Source: Novosphingobium sp.
GTDB lineage: Bacteria > Pseudomonadota > Alphaproteobacteria > Sphingomonadales > Sphingomonadaceae
Length of the DNA: 64,000 nt
Assembly: GCA_024236215.1 (NCBI GenBank)
Contig: JACKKX010000002.1
Location: forward strand, 715,420-779,419
Direction: 5' to 3'
Both the position numbers and the translations under genes were made by a program. Shown here one piece after another: positions 56,009 to 64,000 of this stretch. Position 1 is the first letter of the stretch. Each line of letters opens with the position of its first letter. A model generated the notes under the pieces. The model was given only the letters and a program-made list of their open reading frames with translations, was not told the origin of the DNA and searched no databases.

Positions 56009-57904
56009 TTACCCGGCCGGATTGTACCAGATCGCCGAGGTATAGGCCCGCTCCTGGTGCTTGCGCAGGATTTCGGGCGGCAGGGTGAGCTTGTAGCGCA
56101 CCGCGTCATAGCTCACCCAGGTCGGGGTGGGGATTTCGAGCACGCGCACATAATAGAACGCGCGCTGGCCCGGATCGAATTCGGGATCGGACCACACCGT
56201 CGCCAGCGTGGGGGCACCGATCGAGTTCTTGTAGGTCGCGGTGGCAAGATCGACCGTATCGCCCACGGCAGGGACCTTGCCGCCGTTGATCTTGCGGGTT
56301 TCCGGGCTCGACCAGACCACGTCGAACACCTTCTCGTGGGCATTGCCGGCCTTGTCGACCCAGCCCTTGACCACCTGGACCCGGTCAAGATTGGCGCCGA
56401 TCGGATCCTTGAGCGCGGAAATGATGAAGCTGGGCTTGCCCTTGCCGGCCTTCATCTCGCCGCCCATCGGCACCCCTCGTGCGTAACCGGCCTTGACCCA
56501 GTCGCCCTTGAGGTCGGCGGCGGTGAAATCCCAGCCGCCGAACACCCGCACAACCATGCGCGGCCCGGTGGTGGCATAGACCTCGCGCCGCATCATCGCA
56601 TCGAAGATCGCGTGGCGGGTGTTGCTGGTCGCCCAGACCGCAGCATAGCCGCTGGCGAGCGATTGCCAATTCATCCGCCCGACCCGTTCGATCGGCACAC
56701 CGGGCACAAAGGTATCGGTGGCGCGGTGCGGATTGGGCTCGACCCCGGCGTGCTTGCCGAAGAAATTGTTCTCGTCCGCTGTCGAGAGTGCGGTGTGGCT
56801 GTCGGTCGATCCGATTACCCCGAACTTGTAGGGGTTGGCGCCGGTGCGCTGTTCGATCTGCATCCCGCGCTTGAGCGCCTCGCGCACGTAGGAGCCGGGC
56901 AAGTCGCCGGGCTTGGTCGGCTGCGAGCCGAGCAGGTTGTTGGTATCCCACCCGGCGGTGCCGTAACCGGCAAACTCGTCGTTGGGGGACATGAAGGGAT
57001 GGGCTTCGCTGTCGCCCTTGATCTGGGTGATTTCCACCACCGGCTCATGCGCGGCGCGGCGCCGGGCATAGGCCGCGCTCATCGGACCGCCCGAAGGATC
57101 GGTCATCATGAACATCAGGCCGTTGGAAACGTTCGAGTTGTGCGGGATCGCCAGCACCTTGCCCCCGGTGCTCTTCTCATAGGCATCCATGTAATCCCAC
57201 AGCTTGTCGGGCACCACCAGGCTCTCGGGAGAGGCAGGCAGGACGGTCTTCACCTTGTCGCCGCTGTCACGGAAGATGACGTTGCGGTGCAGGTTGTTGC
57301 CGCCGTCCATCAGGGTATATTCGAACCCGAGGAAGGCAGTGAACCGCCCCGGCTCGTTGTAGCTGTCAACCGTCTTGATATGCGCGTTCCAGATCGAGCG
57401 GGTACGCTCTTCGGCCTTGCCATCCTGATTGAGCGAGAGCGGCAGCTTGTTGTGCGCGCGCGCGTCAAGCAGCTCGGCGGTGGCCTGAAGCGATCCCTGC
57501 GGACCCTGGTGCATCAGATCGTGCCAGCGCCGCAGCTGCGGATCGGAAATCATCATTCGCGGCGCATCGTAGAGCGCCTTGGTCGAGCCAAGGCCTTCCG
57601 AGTGATCGGTGATGACCAGGAAATCGAGCGGACGGGCGAGCTTGGCCTTGACCCCGGTGCTCGAGGTGACTTCTTCACCACGCGCAAAGCGCAGGGCATC
57701 CTCGGGCATCAGGCGGTTGCCGAAACCGAAGGCATCGACCGAGTTGGCGGTATGCAGGTGGGTATCGCCCCAGAACACGCGCTCGGGATAGGGGGTGTCC
57801 TTTACCTCTTCGGCGCCGAATACGACCTGCCGCGCATTGTCGCACCCTGTCATCAACGAAGTCCCGGCAAGCAAAGCCGCCGCAAGCACCAATTTGCCCC
57901 GCAT
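56009..57904 (-). CDS. DUF3604 lipoprotein (copy B)
   Basis: A 631-residue tandem paralogue of copy A, 29 bases upstream of it. The signal peptide ends in the lipobox LMTG-C followed by Asp. Motifs FWGDTHLHTANS, VITDHSEGLG, KVLAIPHNSN and GSTDSHTALS are intact, so both copies look functional. It is the first gene of the minus-strand operon; a palindromic motif lies 70 bases upstream. In enterobacteria Asp after the lipid cysteine retains lipoproteins in the inner membrane; whether that rule holds here is uncertain. Confidence 0.85.
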   Translation of the reverse strand: MRGKLVLAAALLAGTSLMTGCDNARQVVFGAEEVKDTPYPERVFWGDTHLHTANSVDAFGFGNRLMPEDALRFARGEEVTSSTGVKAKLARPLDFLVITDHSEGLGSTKALYDAPRMMISDPQLRRWHDLMHQGPQGSLQATAELLDARAHNKLPLSLNQDGKAEERTRSIWNAHIKTVDSYNEPGRFTAFLGFEYTLMDGGNNLHRNVIFRDSGDKVKTVLPASPESLVVPDKLWDYMDAYEKSTGGKVLAIPHNSNVSNGLMFMMTDPSGGPMSAAYARRRAAHEPVVEITQIKGDSEAHPFMSPNDEFAGYGTAGWDTNNLLGSQPTKPGDLPGSYVREALKRGMQIEQRTGANPYKFGVIGSTDSHTALSTADENNFFGKHAGVEPNPHRATDTFVPGVPIERVGRMNWQSLASGYAAVWATSNTRHAIFDAMMRREVYATTGPRMVVRVFGGWDFTAADLKGDWVKAGYARGVPMGGEMKAGKGKPSFIISALKDPIGANLDRVQVVKGWVDKAGNAHEKVFDVVWSSPETRKINGGKVPAVGDTVDLATATYKNSIGAPTLATVWSDPEFDPGQRAFYYVRVLEIPTPTWVSYDAVRYKLTLPPEILRKHQERAYTSAIWYNPAG

Positions 57905-57973
57905 GGTTCCTCCTCGTCCCGAAGTGCATCTCTTTTGTATTTGCCTGCACCATCGCGCGCGTCGCCGCCGCAG

Positions 57974-57989
57974 TCAACCGCTCGGTTAA
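57974..57989. promoter_or_regulatory. Palindromic motif, copy 3 of 3
   Basis: TCAACCGCTCGGTTAA, with a perfect AACCG-CT-CGGTT core, upstream of the DUF3604 operon. Resembles the motifs at 24472-24487 and 44343-44362. Confidence 0.5.
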
Positions 57990-58051
57990 ATTGATCCCGT
58001 CGGCTGCCCGGCAAAGCCCGGGACAGGAATGGCAACGGCAAAGGGGGGAGG

Positions 58052-58133
58052 TGGTGGACGCACTAGGGCTCGAACCTAGGACCCGCTGATTAAGAGCTGA
58101 AATCAGAGGGTCCTTATGCTTCCGCATGCGTCC
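58052..58133 (-). other. tRNA-Lys(CUU)-derived attachment site with a cloverleaf fold
   Basis: The minus-strand 3' part (58052-58096) is a typical tRNA half: anticodon loop CTCTTAA (CUU), a five-base-pair T arm CTAGG-TTCGAGC-CCTAG, acceptor TGCGTCC and encoded ACCA. The 5' part is not a tRNA D arm and its anticodon-stem strand does not match, but it starts with GGACGCA, pairing all seven acceptor bases. It also carries GGACCC and CTGATT that pair with GGGTCC and AATCAG, plus a small ATGC-GGAA-GCAT hairpin. Best read as attL of the integrative element to its right; a non-standard tRNA-like RNA is the alternative. The rest of the 57905-58227 gap holds only motif copy 3 and the integrase upstream region. 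Confidence 0.65.
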
Positions 58134-58204
58134 AAAAACGGCAGAACTCTGCGAATCATCGTCCGTATTGTTCTTGATATGTTCGCCAGTATCCACTACA
58201 AAAA

Positions 58205-58219
58205 GCTACCTAAGGTAGC
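58205..58219. promoter_or_regulatory. Palindrome before the integrase start
   Basis: Perfect inverted repeat GCTACCT-A-AGGTAGC, nine to twenty-three bases upstream of the integrase ATG. It overlaps the ribosome-binding region (GCAGGAAC) and may be an operator or a translational hairpin limiting integrase expression. Confidence 0.5.
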
Positions 58220-58227
58220 AGGAACAT

Positions 58228-59502
58228 ATGGCGAACAAAGTTGGTTTGACAGATGCTCGGATCGCAGGTTTGAAAGCGCCTGCAAGCGGGCAAATTGAGG
58301 TCGCTGATGGCATCGTGACCGGTCTGCGGCTCCGAATGGGAGCGAGTGGCACCAAAACTTACATCTTGCGTAAGCGCGTTCAAGGTAAATGGTTGAACGT
58401 GACTATCGGGCGGCACGGCCCGAATTTCACTCTTGCCCACGCCCGTCGCAAGGCGCGGGATCTACTCGTCGACGTTGAGCAAGGCAAAAGCATCGCCAGA
58501 AAGCCGGGAGCGAAGAGGAAGGGATCGAAGGGTGTCGGCACTGTCGCTGAGCTATACGAGACATATCTGGCTCAACAGATCGTCGGCAAAAAGCGGAGCG
58601 CGAAAGAGTTCGATCGGGTTTTCCGCAAGTACATTGAACCTGAGCTAGGCGACCGCCTTGCCGATTCGATCACCCGAAGCGACGTCAGCCGCTTTGTCGA
58701 AAAGATTGCATTCGAGCGGGGCAAGGAGACCCTCACGATGGCGCGCATCGTTTATCGCCATCTCTCGACTTTCTACACTTGGGCACTCACCAGATTAGAG
58801 CATTTGCCAGCCAATCCGTGCCGGGACGCCTGGCGCCCAAAAAGGAGCGAGCCTCGCGACCGGGTGCTCAGCGATCGAGAGGTCGCTGCACTGTGGCAAG
58901 CCGCCGTCGAGGATGGCTATCCGTTTGGTCATCTTGTGCAGATGTTGATTCTCACAGCCCAGCGCCGGGGAGAGGTGCTCGACGCCACTAGCGACGAGTT
59001 CGACTTCAAGGGGAAAGTTTGGACAGTACCAGGAGACAGGGCGAAAAACGGCAAGGCAAACGTGGTGCCTTTATCCGCACAGTCCCTCGAGGTCGTCACG
59101 GACATCTTCGCGGCCGCCGGGATCGCGCCTGAAGACGCTCACAAGCAATCCCAAATTCTACTGGCATCAAAGGTCACCAGCACAAACAGTGTCAGTGGTC
59201 TGTCAAAGGCCTGGAAGCGGATAAGGGCAAGCGTGGACGAGAAACTCGGCTATGAAGCCGCTCATTTCACCATGCATGACATTCGCCGGACGGTGGCGAC
59301 GGGACTGCAGAGGATTGGAATACCGCTGGTCGTTTCAGAGGCCGTTCTCAATCATCAGTCCGGCTCGGCAATGGCTGGTGTCGCCGGGGTCTATCATCGG
59401 CATCAGTACACGAATGAAAAACGCGAAGCTCTCGCGCTGTGGGGCAGGGAGGTTCTACTGCTCGTCGCTAAATATTCGCCGCAGGACAGTCAGGAAGAAT
59501 GA
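58228..59502 (+). CDS. Tyrosine-type site-specific integrase
   Basis: A 424-residue phage/ICE integrase: N-terminal DUF4102 arm-binding domain (LTDARIAGLKAPASGQIEVAD), SAM-like core-binding domain (about residues 105-200) and C-terminal catalytic domain. The catalytic residues are Arg in LTAQRRGEVL, Lys in KNGKANVVPLS, HxxR in MHDIRRTVATGL, His in LNHQSG and the nucleophile Tyr in GVYHRHQY. It sits about 95 bases from the tRNA-derived site, as tRNA-targeting integrases do. Codon use is less GC-biased than in the chromosomal genes to the left. Confidence 0.95.
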   Translation: MANKVGLTDARIAGLKAPASGQIEVADGIVTGLRLRMGASGTKTYILRKRVQGKWLNVTIGRHGPNFTLAHARRKARDLLVDVEQGKSIARKPGAKRKGSKGVGTVAELYETYLAQQIVGKKRSAKEFDRVFRKYIEPELGDRLADSITRSDVSRFVEKIAFERGKETLTMARIVYRHLSTFYTWALTRLEHLPANPCRDAWRPKRSEPRDRVLSDREVAALWQAAVEDGYPFGHLVQMLILTAQRRGEVLDATSDEFDFKGKVWTVPGDRAKNGKANVVPLSAQSLEVVTDIFAAAGIAPEDAHKQSQILLASKVTSTNSVSGLSKAWKRIRASVDEKLGYEAAHFTMHDIRRTVATGLQRIGIPLVVSEAVLNHQSGSAMAGVAGVYHRHQYTNEKREALALWGREVLLLVAKYSPQDSQEE

Positions 59503-59711: not shown

Positions 59712-60371
59712 TCAAAAACGCCAATGGCGCAGCACTTCGCGCACATAGGCCGGCGTCTCGCCATTGCGAGGAATACCGCCGGCGCGCTCGACGGCACCTG
59801 GACCTGCGTTGTAGGCAGCGAGGGCCAGATGAACCACCCCGAACTTGTCCAGCATCTGGCGTAGGTATCGGGCCGCACCCAAGATGTTCGCCTTGGGGTC
59901 GAAGCGATTTGAAACGCCAAGGTCGCGCGCTGTCCCTGGCATCAATTGCCCCAAGCCTGCGGCCCCGGCCTTGCTGATGGCCAAGGGATTATATCGTGAT
60001 TCCGTCCATACAAGAGCGTCGAGAAGGCCGCTTGGTAGCGAGTATTGAGCCTCAGCAGCGTAAACATGAGGAAGGTAGCTGGCCCGACGAAAGCCCGATG
60101 GCGCGCTGCTCGGGGGCTTTGGATATCGGTAGGGCAGATAGTTTCGACCTGCATCGGTAGCCGGCGGCTCGGACGAGCCCGCTGGAGGCATTCTCCAAAT
60201 GCCGTGTTCGACGAGAAGAAAGCCATCGGTCCCTTCTGCGACGCGGAAGCCATCGGTCCTCGACTCCGATGCAACGGTCATCTGAGGGGACTCCAGTTCC
60301 TGCGCTTGAGCGGGGAGGGCGAACCCAAATCCTGCCGTTGCCACTGCGGCAACTGCCCATTTCAGTCTCAT
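59712..60371 (-). CDS. Exported lytic transglycosylase (SLT domain)
   Basis: A ~219-residue protein: a signal peptide ([22 protein letters not shown]), a proline-rich linker, then an SLT domain with the catalytic glutamate in [14 protein letters not shown] and the [15 protein letters not shown] and [15 protein letters not shown] motifs. It cuts peptidoglycan; in mobile elements such enzymes (VirB1/TraL type) open the wall for conjugation pili. Start at 60371 gives the signal peptide directly. GAACATAT direct repeats lie upstream. Confidence 0.88.
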
Positions 60372-60402
60372 TCCCGAATCCTTTGTTGGTCGAATCGAGA
60401 AA

Positions 60403-60421
60403 GAACATATATAGAACATAT
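60403..60421. promoter_or_regulatory. GAACATAT direct repeat before the transglycosylase
   Basis: Two GAACATAT copies 11 bases apart (60403-60410 and 60414-60421) in an AT-rich stretch. The same octamer occurs before the integrase (58222-58229, and inverted at 58177-58184), suggesting a shared element-encoded regulator or promoter motif. Confidence 0.4.
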
Positions 60422-60484
60422 CATGTAGGAAAATGAAACGTCAGCGACGCAGAGCGGAGGCTGCGCGGGTGGAGGCACGTTACG

Positions 60485-61408
60485 ATGGAGATGCCCCCCA
60501 TGAACCAACACCGATCATCCCAATTCCAAGGCATGCAGATGGAAACCCGCGCACGCAAGATAGTCGAGCAGCTGGGCGGCACCTGGTCGCGTTCGCGCGG
60601 GATGTGCTGCTGCCCGGCCCACGACGACCGCACTCCTTCGCTAAGCATCACGCTCGGGAAGCGTGCAATTCTTGTTCATTGCTTTGCCGGCTGCACGAAC
60701 GAGGCGGTGATAGAAGCCATGGCCGGGCTCGGGATACGAATTGCGGACTTGTTCGATGGCACGAGTGGTCCGATCGTGGCCGAACCGCGCGAGGAAGTCG
60801 CCAATCGGAATGCGCTGAGGCTCTGGCGTGAGGCGTCGACCATCGCTGGCAGCCCCGCCGAGAAGTACCTCGTGTCCAGAGGCATCACGATTTCTTCGCC
60901 GGAGCTGCGTTTCCACCCGCGTATGCCGCTTGGGCCAAAGGGTGCTGTCCGGTTTCTACCCGCGATGGTCGCGGCCGTGCGCAGTGATGCCGGGATTCTG
61001 GCGCTGCACCGCTCCTTCCTCAATCTGGAAAAAAGCAGCTTGGCTTCATTTGATCAGCCCAGGCGTGCGTTAGGCAGTCCCGGTTCTGGCGCGGTGCGTT
61101 TCGCATACCCGGATGAGGGACGCCTTGGACTCGCAGAAGGAAACGAAACGGCCCTCTCAACGATGCAAATGTTCAATGTTCCCTGCTGGGCGACGCTGGG
61201 AAACGAACGCTTCGGCCAGGTCACAATCCCGGAATCGGTGCGCGAGCTGTATCTCTTTGTCGACAATGATGCGGGTGGGCGCCTTGCTGAAGAGCGCGCG
61301 CGAAATGCTTACGCTTGCGAAGGGCGGCTGATTGTCACCAGGCGTCCGCAGCAGACCGGCGATGATTGGAATGATGTGCTCATGCGCTCAGTCCGAGCTG
61401 CGGTCTGA
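60485..61408 (+). CDS. CHC2 zinc-finger/Toprim primase-like protein
   Basis: A 307-residue protein with an N-terminal CHC2-type zinc finger (CCCPAHDDRTPSLSI and LVHCFAGC) and a C-terminal Toprim domain (LGLAEGNETALSTM with the catalytic Glu; LYLFVDNDAGGRLAEE with the acidic pair). This is the plasmid/ICE primase-like family (TraC/P4-alpha related) without a helicase. It would prime the transferred strand. GGAGG lies nine bases before ATG 60485; two in-frame ATGs shortly downstream are alternative starts. Confidence 0.85.
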   Translation: MEMPPMNQHRSSQFQGMQMETRARKIVEQLGGTWSRSRGMCCCPAHDDRTPSLSITLGKRAILVHCFAGCTNEAVIEAMAGLGIRIADLFDGTSGPIVAEPREEVANRNALRLWREASTIAGSPAEKYLVSRGITISSPELRFHPRMPLGPKGAVRFLPAMVAAVRSDAGILALHRSFLNLEKSSLASFDQPRRALGSPGSGAVRFAYPDEGRLGLAEGNETALSTMQMFNVPCWATLGNERFGQVTIPESVRELYLFVDNDAGGRLAEERARNAYACEGRLIVTRRPQQTGDDWNDVLMRSVRAAV

Positions 61409-61511
61409 ATGTCGGTGAGAGGAAAGCGGGCTTGGGGCCTTGTGAGGCCCCCGGACGGATCCATCTGAACGGACACCCGGACAAACCCAGGGCCTCTTCA
61501 GGAGGTCTCTC

Positions 61512-63980
61512 ATGTCACATGCAAATACCGCTTTCGCATTCTCCGATCCAGCCGAGCCGCAAGTGTTGGCAGCGGCGAGGGCGCTGGCCGCGCGGCTCGT
61601 TGCAGATCAAGCAATCTCACGGCTCACTGTGAATGCAACAATGGCCGATCACTTCGGCGGTAGCGACGCCGAAGGACGCTGGTCCGTACGCGATGCCCAT
61701 GCCGCACTTGAATTGGCGCAGGTGCTTTTCCTGGCGCAGGCAACTGAATTTTCACCTGCGATGTCATCCAGCTTCGCCGCTGAGGCATTCACGCACCTCG
61801 AACGTCTGGTTCCGACCCAGTCCAACCGGAGCGATGAGCAGATCGAGTGGCAACAATTCGCAACGCCGCCCCGCCTGGCCTGGATGGCTGCAAAGGCATG
61901 CGCGATTTCTGCCGCTGAACTGGTTCTCGAACCGTCCGCCGGGACCGGGATGCTGGGCGTATGGGCAGCGAAGGCAGCTGCGCGTCTTGCTCTCAACGAG
62001 ATTTCGCCGCTTCGCCGCGAATGCTTGGGCGCCGTGTTTCCGGAGGCGACAGTGACGGGATTTGACGGGGAACTGATCGACGAACTTCTCACGCCCGACG
62101 TGGGTCCTAGCGTGGTGCTGATGAACCCGCCCTATTCGCACGGTATCGAGAGGGGCCACGATAGTCGCACTGGCGATCGACACTTGCGTTCTGCCTGGAA
62201 GCGCCTTCTGCCCGGTGGCCGCCTGGTGGCAGTGATGCCCGAATGGTTCGAGCTTCCGAAGTTCCTTGCTGGGATTGCCGGTCCCCTCTCGTTGCGCCTC
62301 AACGCGACGATCGAGCGCGGTTTCGTCAAGCAGGGCACATCAATCTCTACCCGGCTCCTGGTTCTCGACAAGGCTGATGATGGTACCAGCCCGATCATCG
62401 CCCAGCCTGGAAACTTTGCCGAGCTTCATCTGCTGATCGATATGCTGCCTGACCGGGTAAGCCTGCCCGCCGAGCCCAGCATCGGCATCAAGCCAGCCTT
62501 GCCGCTTCGACTGGTGGCGAACAGGACAAAACCGGCTCCACTTAAGGTCCATCCAGCCGCTGCGGCGCCGTCGATACTGCCGCTTGAATTTACTCCGCTC
62601 GAAGCACCTGCGCCGATCGAAAGCCAGGTTGGGCATTATTTGCCTTACCGACCGAGCCGGATCTCAATTGCAAATGCGGTCTCCCACCCGACACCGCTGG
62701 TAGAATCCGTCGCGATGGGTTCGATAACCGCACCCGTGCCCGAAGTGGTGCCTCAGCTTCCCTCGAGTATCATTGCTGAAGGCATCTTATCCGCAGCGCA
62801 AGCCGAGACCCTGATCTATGCCGCAAGCGCCCATGCCCGCGATCTGCCGGGCCGGTTCGAGCCCGACGACAAGGGCTGCGCCCTCAAGGCGAGCGCCGAG
62901 GGGCGCGCCTACCGCATGGGCTACTTTCTTGGGGACGGAACTGGTGCAGGCAAAGGCCGGCAAGTCGCATCTGTCATCCTCGACCGGTGGGTGAGGGGTG
63001 AACGGCGCCACATATGGATTTCCAAGAACGAAGCTTTGCTCGAAGACGCCCGCCGCGACTGGAGCGCGCTCGGTGGCCTTCCCATCGACATCCAGCCGCT
63101 CGGCCAGTGGAAGCTCGGTGTCCCGATCGGGATGCGCGAGGGCATACTCTTCGTTACTTATCCGACACTGCGCTCGGGCCGCAGCGACGCGACCCGGCTC
63201 GAGCAGATCCTCGAATGGGCAGGGGAGGACTTCGACGGGCTCATCGTCTTTGACGAGGCCCATGCGATGGCCAACGCCGCTGGCGGGGAGGGCACACGTG
63301 GCAAGGTCAAGGGATCGGAGCAGGGCATCGCCGGTGTTCGTATCCAGAATCTGCTGCCACGCGCCCGCGTGCTCTACGCATCGGCGACCGGGGCATCCGA
63401 CGTCAATAATCTCGCCTATGCGACCCGTCTTGGCCTGTGGGGTCCCGAGACGGCTTTTGCCAATCGCGAAGCCTTCGTCGCGGACATCCGCGATGGCGGT
63501 ATCGCTGCAATGGAACTGGTCGCCCGTGATCTGAAGTCACTCGGACTGTATGCGGCGAGGGCACTTTCATTCGCCGGAGTCGAGTACGAGATTCTCGAGC
63601 ATTGCCTGACCCCCGACCAGGTAGCGGTTTATGACGCCTATGCAGACGCCTGGGCAATCATTCATTCCAACCTGCGCGAGGCACTCGAGGCAACCCGGAT
63701 CGTCGACACTGACAGTGGCGATACCCTGAATTCAGGCGCCAAATCGGCTGCGCTTTCGGTGTTTGAAGGCACCAAGCAGCGCTTCTTCGCGCAGCTCCTT
63801 CTATCGATGAAGCTGCCGAGCCTGCTGCCTGCGATTGATACGGCACTTGCCGACGGCAACGCTGTTGTAGTTCAACTCGTCTCGACCGCCGAAGCCATGC
63901 TCAACCGCCGCCTCGCTGATCTCTCCGATGCGGAACGTGAAGCACTCGAAATCGATCTCTCCCCCCGCGAATATGTGTAA
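61512..63980 (+). CDS. Strawberry-notch-type methylase/SF2 helicase, C-terminally truncated
   Basis: 822 codons to the stop. N-terminal SAM-dependent methyltransferase with EPSAGTG (about 140-146) and NPPYSHG (about 205), the N6-adenine type; then a P-loop NTPase with GDGTGAGKGRQ (about 475-485) and DEAH (about 581-584), the SNO/strawberry-notch group of element-encoded anti-restriction-like proteins. Full-length relatives continue well beyond the segment LSPREYV, where this frame stops inside a perfect palindrome, so it is probably interrupted at 63978. AGGAGG precedes the ATG. Confidence 0.85.
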   Translation: MSHANTAFAFSDPAEPQVLAAARALAARLVADQAISRLTVNATMADHFGGSDAEGRWSVRDAHAALELAQVLFLAQATEFSPAMSSSFAAEAFTHLERLVPTQSNRSDEQIEWQQFATPPRLAWMAAKACAISAAELVLEPSAGTGMLGVWAAKAAARLALNEISPLRRECLGAVFPEATVTGFDGELIDELLTPDVGPSVVLMNPPYSHGIERGHDSRTGDRHLRSAWKRLLPGGRLVAVMPEWFELPKFLAGIAGPLSLRLNATIERGFVKQGTSISTRLLVLDKADDGTSPIIAQPGNFAELHLLIDMLPDRVSLPAEPSIGIKPALPLRLVANRTKPAPLKVHPAAAAPSILPLEFTPLEAPAPIESQVGHYLPYRPSRISIANAVSHPTPLVESVAMGSITAPVPEVVPQLPSSIIAEGILSAAQAETLIYAASAHARDLPGRFEPDDKGCALKASAEGRAYRMGYFLGDGTGAGKGRQVASVILDRWVRGERRHIWISKNEALLEDARRDWSALGGLPIDIQPLGQWKLGVPIGMREGILFVTYPTLRSGRSDATRLEQILEWAGEDFDGLIVFDEAHAMANAAGGEGTRGKVKGSEQGIAGVRIQNLLPRARVLYASATGASDVNNLAYATRLGLWGPETAFANREAFVADIRDGGIAAMELVARDLKSLGLYAARALSFAGVEYEILEHCLTPDQVAVYDAYADAWAIIHSNLREALEATRIVDTDSGDTLNSGAKSAALSVFEGTKQRFFAQLLLSMKLPSLLPAIDTALADGNAVVVQLVSTAEAMLNRRLADLSDAEREALEIDLSPREYV

Positions 63981-63997: not shown

Positions 63998-64000
63998 GAT

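Follow-up and report, generated by a model that had tools for sequence, protein, structure and literature searches.

The 82-nt stretch read from 58133 to 58052 on the minus strand of the window (the whole 64,000-nt stretch of Novosphingobium DNA analyzed here) was best explained as the attL-type end of an element integrated in a tRNA-Lys(CUU) gene, equipped with arm-type repeats and a core-type-like inverted arm, resembling a tRNA by chance and giving rise to no tRNA-like RNA. We estimate the probability of this reading at about 0.72. Ordinary att-site architecture accounts for most of the fold, and the arm mirroring the target is a real variant of it.

Scoring of the 82 nt confirmed all the pairings named in the original prediction. 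The acceptor formed 7 of 7 pairs (GGACGCA with TGCGTCC) and the mini-arm ATGC/GCAT formed 4 of 4, of which three remain if both helices form, as its first A also belongs to acceptor pair 7. The extended anticodon arm, GGACCCTCTGATT with AATCAGCGGGTCC, formed 12 of 13 pairs with one T-C mismatch and a nine-base loop, and the T arm formed 5 of 5, its first C being shared with the extended arm.

On the minus strand, 37 nt of foreign DNA was followed, from tRNA position 32 onward, by a tRNA-Lys(CUU) 3' half that includes the CCA. ARAGORN detected an intact tRNA-Lys(CUU) with the acceptor strand GGACGCA elsewhere in the genome (G000:C5:298144-298219), located after a gene of the FtsW/RodA family, and the one further genomic copy of the 45-nt half lay within this gene. 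The two copies form a direct repeat of 45 nt with 100% identity between contig C2, which holds the window, and contig C5, as in a tRNA island. The presence of the intact gene with an identical repeat elsewhere in the genome therefore identified the locus as the displaced, attL-type end of an element. The intact tRNA is on another contig because that of the window stops at window base 64000, and the element most likely bridges C2 and C5. The tyrosine integrase gene started 95 bp beyond the att site, placing such an enzyme at the element end. These results agreed with the earlier description of the site as a tRNA-derived att site, and the second copy of the 3' half, for which a search had been proposed, was thus located. 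The features are listed in Table 1.

Table 1. Positions of the features at the element end (window coordinates)
Feature	Position	Strand	Comment
Displaced tRNA-Lys(CUU) 3' half, tRNA positions 32 to CCA, 45 nt	58052..58096	-	100% identical to G000:C5:298175-298219
Right arm AATCAGCGGGTCC	58079..58091	-	anticodon loop end, 3' anticodon stem, variable loop, T stem start
Probable 7-bp crossover region	58090..58096	-	coincides with the anticodon loop (tRNA positions 32-38)
Att-site DNA on the element side (foreign 5' half)	58097..58133	-	same 37-mer found, in different contexts, next to tRNA halves of two T-stem types
Left arm GGACCCTCTGATT	58101..58113	-	inverted copy of the tRNA half-site, 12/13 pairs
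10-bp repeat 3 (GGACCCTCTG)	58104..58113	-	also forms the inverted repeat's outer end
10-bp repeat 2 (GGAAGCATAA)	58114..58123	-	GGA, not GGA[CT]; mini-arm spans repeats 1 and 2
10-bp repeat 1 (GGACGCATGC)	58124..58133	-	acceptor strand of the original prediction; from lag-10 analysis; putative arm-type role
Candidate distal block, four 10-bp units GGATACTGGC GAACATATCA AGAACAATAC GGACGATGAT	58155..58194	-	middle two degenerate
Palindrome GCTACCTAAGGTAGC	58205..58219	.	just ahead of the integrase start; varied copies in many relatives
Tyrosine integrase, 424 aa	58228..59502	+	Arm-DNA-bind_3 (PF13356) and Phage_integrase (PF00589)

The analysis of element DNA covered approximately 6 kb at the window end and 8 kb past the intact gene on C5. 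Beside the integrase, window positions 59712-63980 encoded Transglycosylase SLT, DUF7146/Toprim and AAA_34 proteins, and the genes past the intact C5 tRNA included those of Peptidase_S24 and IS110 types. The element is probably integrative-conjugative, a guess based on how genes like its neighbours usually behave. In L125, from a different genome of the genus, the tRNA was followed by the same sequence for at least 70 nt, with 146 of 146 nt identical when the tRNA was included. Past the intact tRNA on C5, a tandem TAGGTAGC-TTTC-TAGGTAGC was found (L003:10287-10306), beginning 66 nt past the CCA of the tRNA. The TAGGTAGC motif occurred at an equal distance in seven of the eight loci examined, the exception being L142; L003 and L125 carry the same element end. 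The same half-site also builds the palindrome preceding the integrase gene, and from their sequence these motifs may be directionality-factor sites; the palindrome itself is possibly an operator or a directionality-factor site. It was also the only candidate, on the minus strand, in a terminator scan of 57900-58400 (one found against 0.5 expected), and a terminator built by the inverted arm was accordingly rejected.

The placement of the intact tRNA and the displaced half was compared in seven further genomes. With both copies on one contig and one strand, the displaced, integrase-adjacent half lay 66.5 kb downstream of the intact tRNA in G033, 92.7 kb in G036 and 137.5 kb in G507, and the distance between the two was 315.6 kb in G293. 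Displaced halves were found 10.6 and 34.3 kb from the intact tRNA in G122, and the copies were spread over several contigs in G361 and G660. Since extra copies lie nearby in some genomes, each pair of intact tRNA and displaced half can only be presumed to bound one element. Probable tandem elements with several displaced 3' halves were noted at the tRNA-Lys site on G361:C9 and G033:C1. Judging from the genomes of the genus, the tRNA-Lys(CUU) that follows the FtsW/RodA-family gene seems to be a hot spot for integration; several of these genomes carry the tRNA-Lys(CUU) gene itself in close tandem copies. No exact empty site was seen in the 20 loci L120-L139, a set including one locus that is this genome and one without the tRNA pattern, as the DUF3604 gene was absent from the fetched flank.

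The integrase was searched in 397 genomes of the family and 396 of the order, two overlapping sets, together with one scan across genome contigs, yielding at least the loci L005-L118, some of which are one genome counted twice. A tRNA-Lys 3' half was recognized ahead of the integrase in at least 93 of these loci, 79 of them distinct by context. The window belonged to clade A, with 55 contexts that were sorted by the inverted arm and hence all carry it. The plasmids yielded two distant integrase relatives. In the viral collection one relative (35%) was found, and neither arm pattern had an exact match.

The site of crossover was narrowed by these comparisons. The host triplet TGA at positions 29-31 was found in none of the 55 clade-A attL contexts, which would place the crossover to the right of 31, and in five cases an identical element 37-mer adjoined two T-stem forms of the tRNA half, which would place it to the left of about 51. 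The shared block began at C32 in diverse relatives, including those free of the palindrome, and among the matches listed, the partial 3' halves left in the genus by any element mostly began no more than 4 bases from C32. These positions point to the anticodon loop, which usually serves as the 7-bp overlap according to the excerpted text of PMC8371274. The attB was symmetric about the anticodon loop at 8 of 14 matches. The centre of the palindrome was at position 32 in clades A and B, and half a base further in L016, a locus targeting a different tRNA-Lys. It was thus offset by 3 bp from the probable crossover centre (32 vs 35), and five clade-A rows showed only 0-2 of 14 matches when centred on the anticodon loop. 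Should the anticodon loop be the overlap, as seems to be the case, the palindrome is not a core-type inverted pair centred on it, and the arm is therefore not a textbook core-type site.

The offset would vanish if the overlap were tRNA positions 29-35 and the palindrome an ordinary core-type pair, with the integrase tolerating one to three mismatches. There is precedent for such tolerance in CTnDOT and NBU1 (excerpt of PMC10865867), and L020, L022 and L023 carry 15-bp arms around exactly 7 bp. We nevertheless consider this arrangement unlikely, as it predicts segregants: TGG occupied positions 29-31 in 30 clade-A contexts and the host TGA never did, even though a tRNA with G31 could still wobble-pair, and the reciprocal tRNA pattern was found in none of the 397 genomes. 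The start of the shared block at C32 even in palindrome-free relatives also argues against it. Reaction bias or selection on the tRNA could, on the other hand, mask segregants.

Three integrase lineages, namely clade A, clade B (integrase identity of 47-50%) and L016 (60%), genuinely share a stretch that copies the tRNA half-site in inverted orientation. When 200,000 random 45-mers with 60% G+C were generated, an arm of at least 12/13 pairs appeared in five, GGACGCA in 780 and both in none, indicating that the arm is far beyond chance and the acceptor strand alone much less so; a chance origin of the inverted arm was rejected on this basis. Ten of 12 arm pairs were invariant over 30 clade-A rows, and the arm positions matched were 11 of 14 in clade A, 12-13 in clade B and 13 in L016. 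The left arm GGACCC-CTGAT was near-invariant in clade A, where the unpaired base inside it was T (once A); this base was G, and paired, in clade B. The innermost left-arm base varied in clade A and was paired in 11 of the 30 rows. L016 targets tRNA-Lys(UUU), and its arm was changed to match that tRNA, with three pairs altered on both sides and one mismatch. This is one of 12 chosen palindrome-bearing rows, and the pattern was present in one of 397 genomes; L089 has an identical att sequence and may come from the L016 genome as well. The UUU-targeting neighbours of L016, L015 and L087, were without an inverted arm.

As 17 of 28 representatives lacked the inverted arm, the integrase family does not need it. 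On an integrase tree of 43 rows, the distribution of the arm required three or more gains or losses, possibly a single gain with two losses. The arm remained unaltered beside differing host halves, including that of L115, which differs within the paired stretch, demonstrating that the arm is a fixed sequence of the element and is not remade at each insertion. In L115, a clade-A element end adjoins a 3' half from a lysine-type tRNA that is clearly distinct. In L021, L042 and L044, a sister group of clade B, another motif, e.g. GAACC..GGTTC, replaced the inverted arm just before the crossover. Among 20 relatives with another or no recognized target, a tRNA-like stretch was found in 15, including a wrong one taken for L098 and L100, and the best inverted match reached 7-8 of 12 when searched freely, without shuffle controls. 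The earlier suggestion that the element end is an inverted mimic of its target was retained for the extended anticodon arm and dropped for the rest.

It is improbable, in our view, that the inverted arm is itself recognized as a hairpin or cruciform of DNA or RNA, for instance in a single-stranded attP folded after conjugative transfer. Such recognition would fit the pairing retained despite the shifted spacing (the loop has 9 nt in the two clades and 8 nt in L016), the changes on both sides in L016, the displacement of the palindrome centre from the probable crossover centre and, in the L020 fold, a stem of 15 uninterrupted pairs. An equal pattern would, however, result from a single protein site present twice in double-stranded DNA, and the near-invariance of the clade-A arm sequence is needless under a constraint on structure only. 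Many relatives, moreover, enter the same tRNA without the arm.

The 5' half could be read in ten-base steps, GGACGCATGC, GGAAGCATAA and GGACCCTCTG. Over 27 representatives, GGA[CT] recurred at lag 10 in 23 pairs against 0.29 expected, with three or fewer in any of 300 shuffle sets, and was in further excess at lags 20, 30-31 and 41-42. Such a pair was present in 11 of the 27, with none in the clade-B rows and several others, and 15 of the 23 pairs came from seven loci outside the window's clade. The looser GGA gave 29 pairs at lag 10 against 1.19 expected over all 27 representatives, and the window's own site counts at this lag only with GGA and not with GGA[CT]. L025, L028 and L041, also outside clade A, had two blocks of three repeats. 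Short direct repeats thus lie outside the core at helical spacing, as do the arm-type sites of an attP, and judging from sequence the GGA-type 10-bp repeats are probably arm-type integrase sites. This assignment is natural because the integrase has an arm-binding domain and ICEMlSymR7A has 10-bp arm motifs, as given in the excerpt of PMC11963761. Since the tRNA acceptor itself begins with GGAC, a GGAC repeat at the acceptor place yields four pairs for free.

The single-strand fold (87 nt) had z = -4.81, and none of 200 shuffles was equally stable. The minimum-energy fold kept the acceptor and the extended arm, and lost the mini-arm and the T arm. ARAGORN called no tRNA in the window, Rfam gave no family at the gathering score, and no promoter-like site was found in 57900-58400; the stretch had neither a tRNA call nor a conserved acceptor and D arm. 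The 5' strand in the 55 clade-A contexts was GGACACA in 23, GGACGCA in 15, GGACCCA in 14, GGACCCG in two and GGACACG in one, so that 40 of the 55 had a different, non-pairing base at acceptor pair 5. This pair (5-74) was unpaired in 24 of 30 distinct complete clade-A rows, with no double change in the acceptor helix. The other acceptor pairs were nearly invariant in clade A; 88% of the acceptor cells and 90% of those of the three inner mini-arm pairs were paired over the 30 rows, and two mini-arm pairs each showed one double change. Because of this conservation, a chance resemblance is unproven within clade A. Outside it, 1 to 6 of 7 acceptor pairs were found in the equal register with no consistent strand, and neither the mini-arm nor the acceptor had a consistent counterpart. 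The cloverleaf was the minimum-energy fold in none of eight relatives, those bearing the palindrome folding about the long arm. The covariation score for the entire structure exceeded all 500 shuffles, but 14 of the 16 double-changed cells were the host's own T-stem variant. With pair 5 lost, no consistent counterpart outside clade A and the acceptor and mini-arm within the 10-bp repeats, the complete cloverleaf found no support as a biological unit, and a tRNA-like RNA made by the element received little support, as neither a tRNA or Rfam match nor a site resembling a promoter turned up. A decayed or specialized tRNA-like gene on the element, transcribed and re-forming the acceptor, D-like and anticodon arms with its 5' half, would agree with the strong fold in the window, the clade-A pairing and a 5' strand identical to the intact gene's as far as U8, but was judged most improbable from the uncompensated loss of pair 5, the want of a consistent counterpart beyond clade A, the folds of the relatives, and the lack of an ARAGORN or Rfam call.

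In the favoured reading, an attL-type end, the element would have entered the tRNA-Lys(CUU) gene, most likely via the anticodon loop, and the 10-bp repeats would be bound by the N-terminal arm domain of the integrase. The inverted arm, presumably kept by selection, may be a second integrase-binding site of core-type-like character; it would be present in attP and attL and not in attB or attR, and could aid the integrase in holding or distinguishing its sites. The acceptor strand and mini-arm would be repeat DNA, tRNA-like by chance in the window's sub-lineage, and no tRNA-like RNA would be made from the locus. A broader idea, put forward tentatively and with considerable doubt, is that this integrase family more than once placed an inverted target half-site in attP, off the crossover register, as a structural or decoy site that is confined to attP and attL and sets recombination direction or target identity. 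The striking fold was accounted for without a new RNA. One integrase family with and without the target-mirroring arm, acting on two tRNA-Lys targets, provides a natural series, which lets one test how tRNA-targeting integrases define core sites and shift to new targets.

The tRNA-targeted genomic islands of Islander (PMC4383910) likewise have a regenerated target at one end and a displaced fragment at the other, and include an anticodon-loop crossover class, as here; an inverted target half-site on the element side, present in this element, had no mention in the excerpt of that source. The titles and abstract openings searched described no target-mirroring attP arm, which is not a claim of its absence from print. 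According to an excerpt of PMC10865867, the phages of tRNA-dependent lysogeny resemble this element in their tRNA-Lys target and in putative arm-type sites next to the common core; they carry a real tRNA gene, whereas this element end was not called as a tRNA. In attL/intS of the KplE1 prophage, arm-type and core-type sites beside the tRNA 3' end similarly overlap the integrase promoter region, the tRNA being argW, unlike the tRNA-Lys here (PMC2951348, in part). The available portion of PMC11963761 on ICEMlSymR7A and IntS gives a different arm motif (TGKTGGTATC) and does not mention a target-mirroring arm. The likeness to ICEMlSymR7A in that portion lies in an attP with five 10-bp P/arm-type motifs, in intS located beside attL, and in the directionality factor RdfS, which binds upstream of intS.
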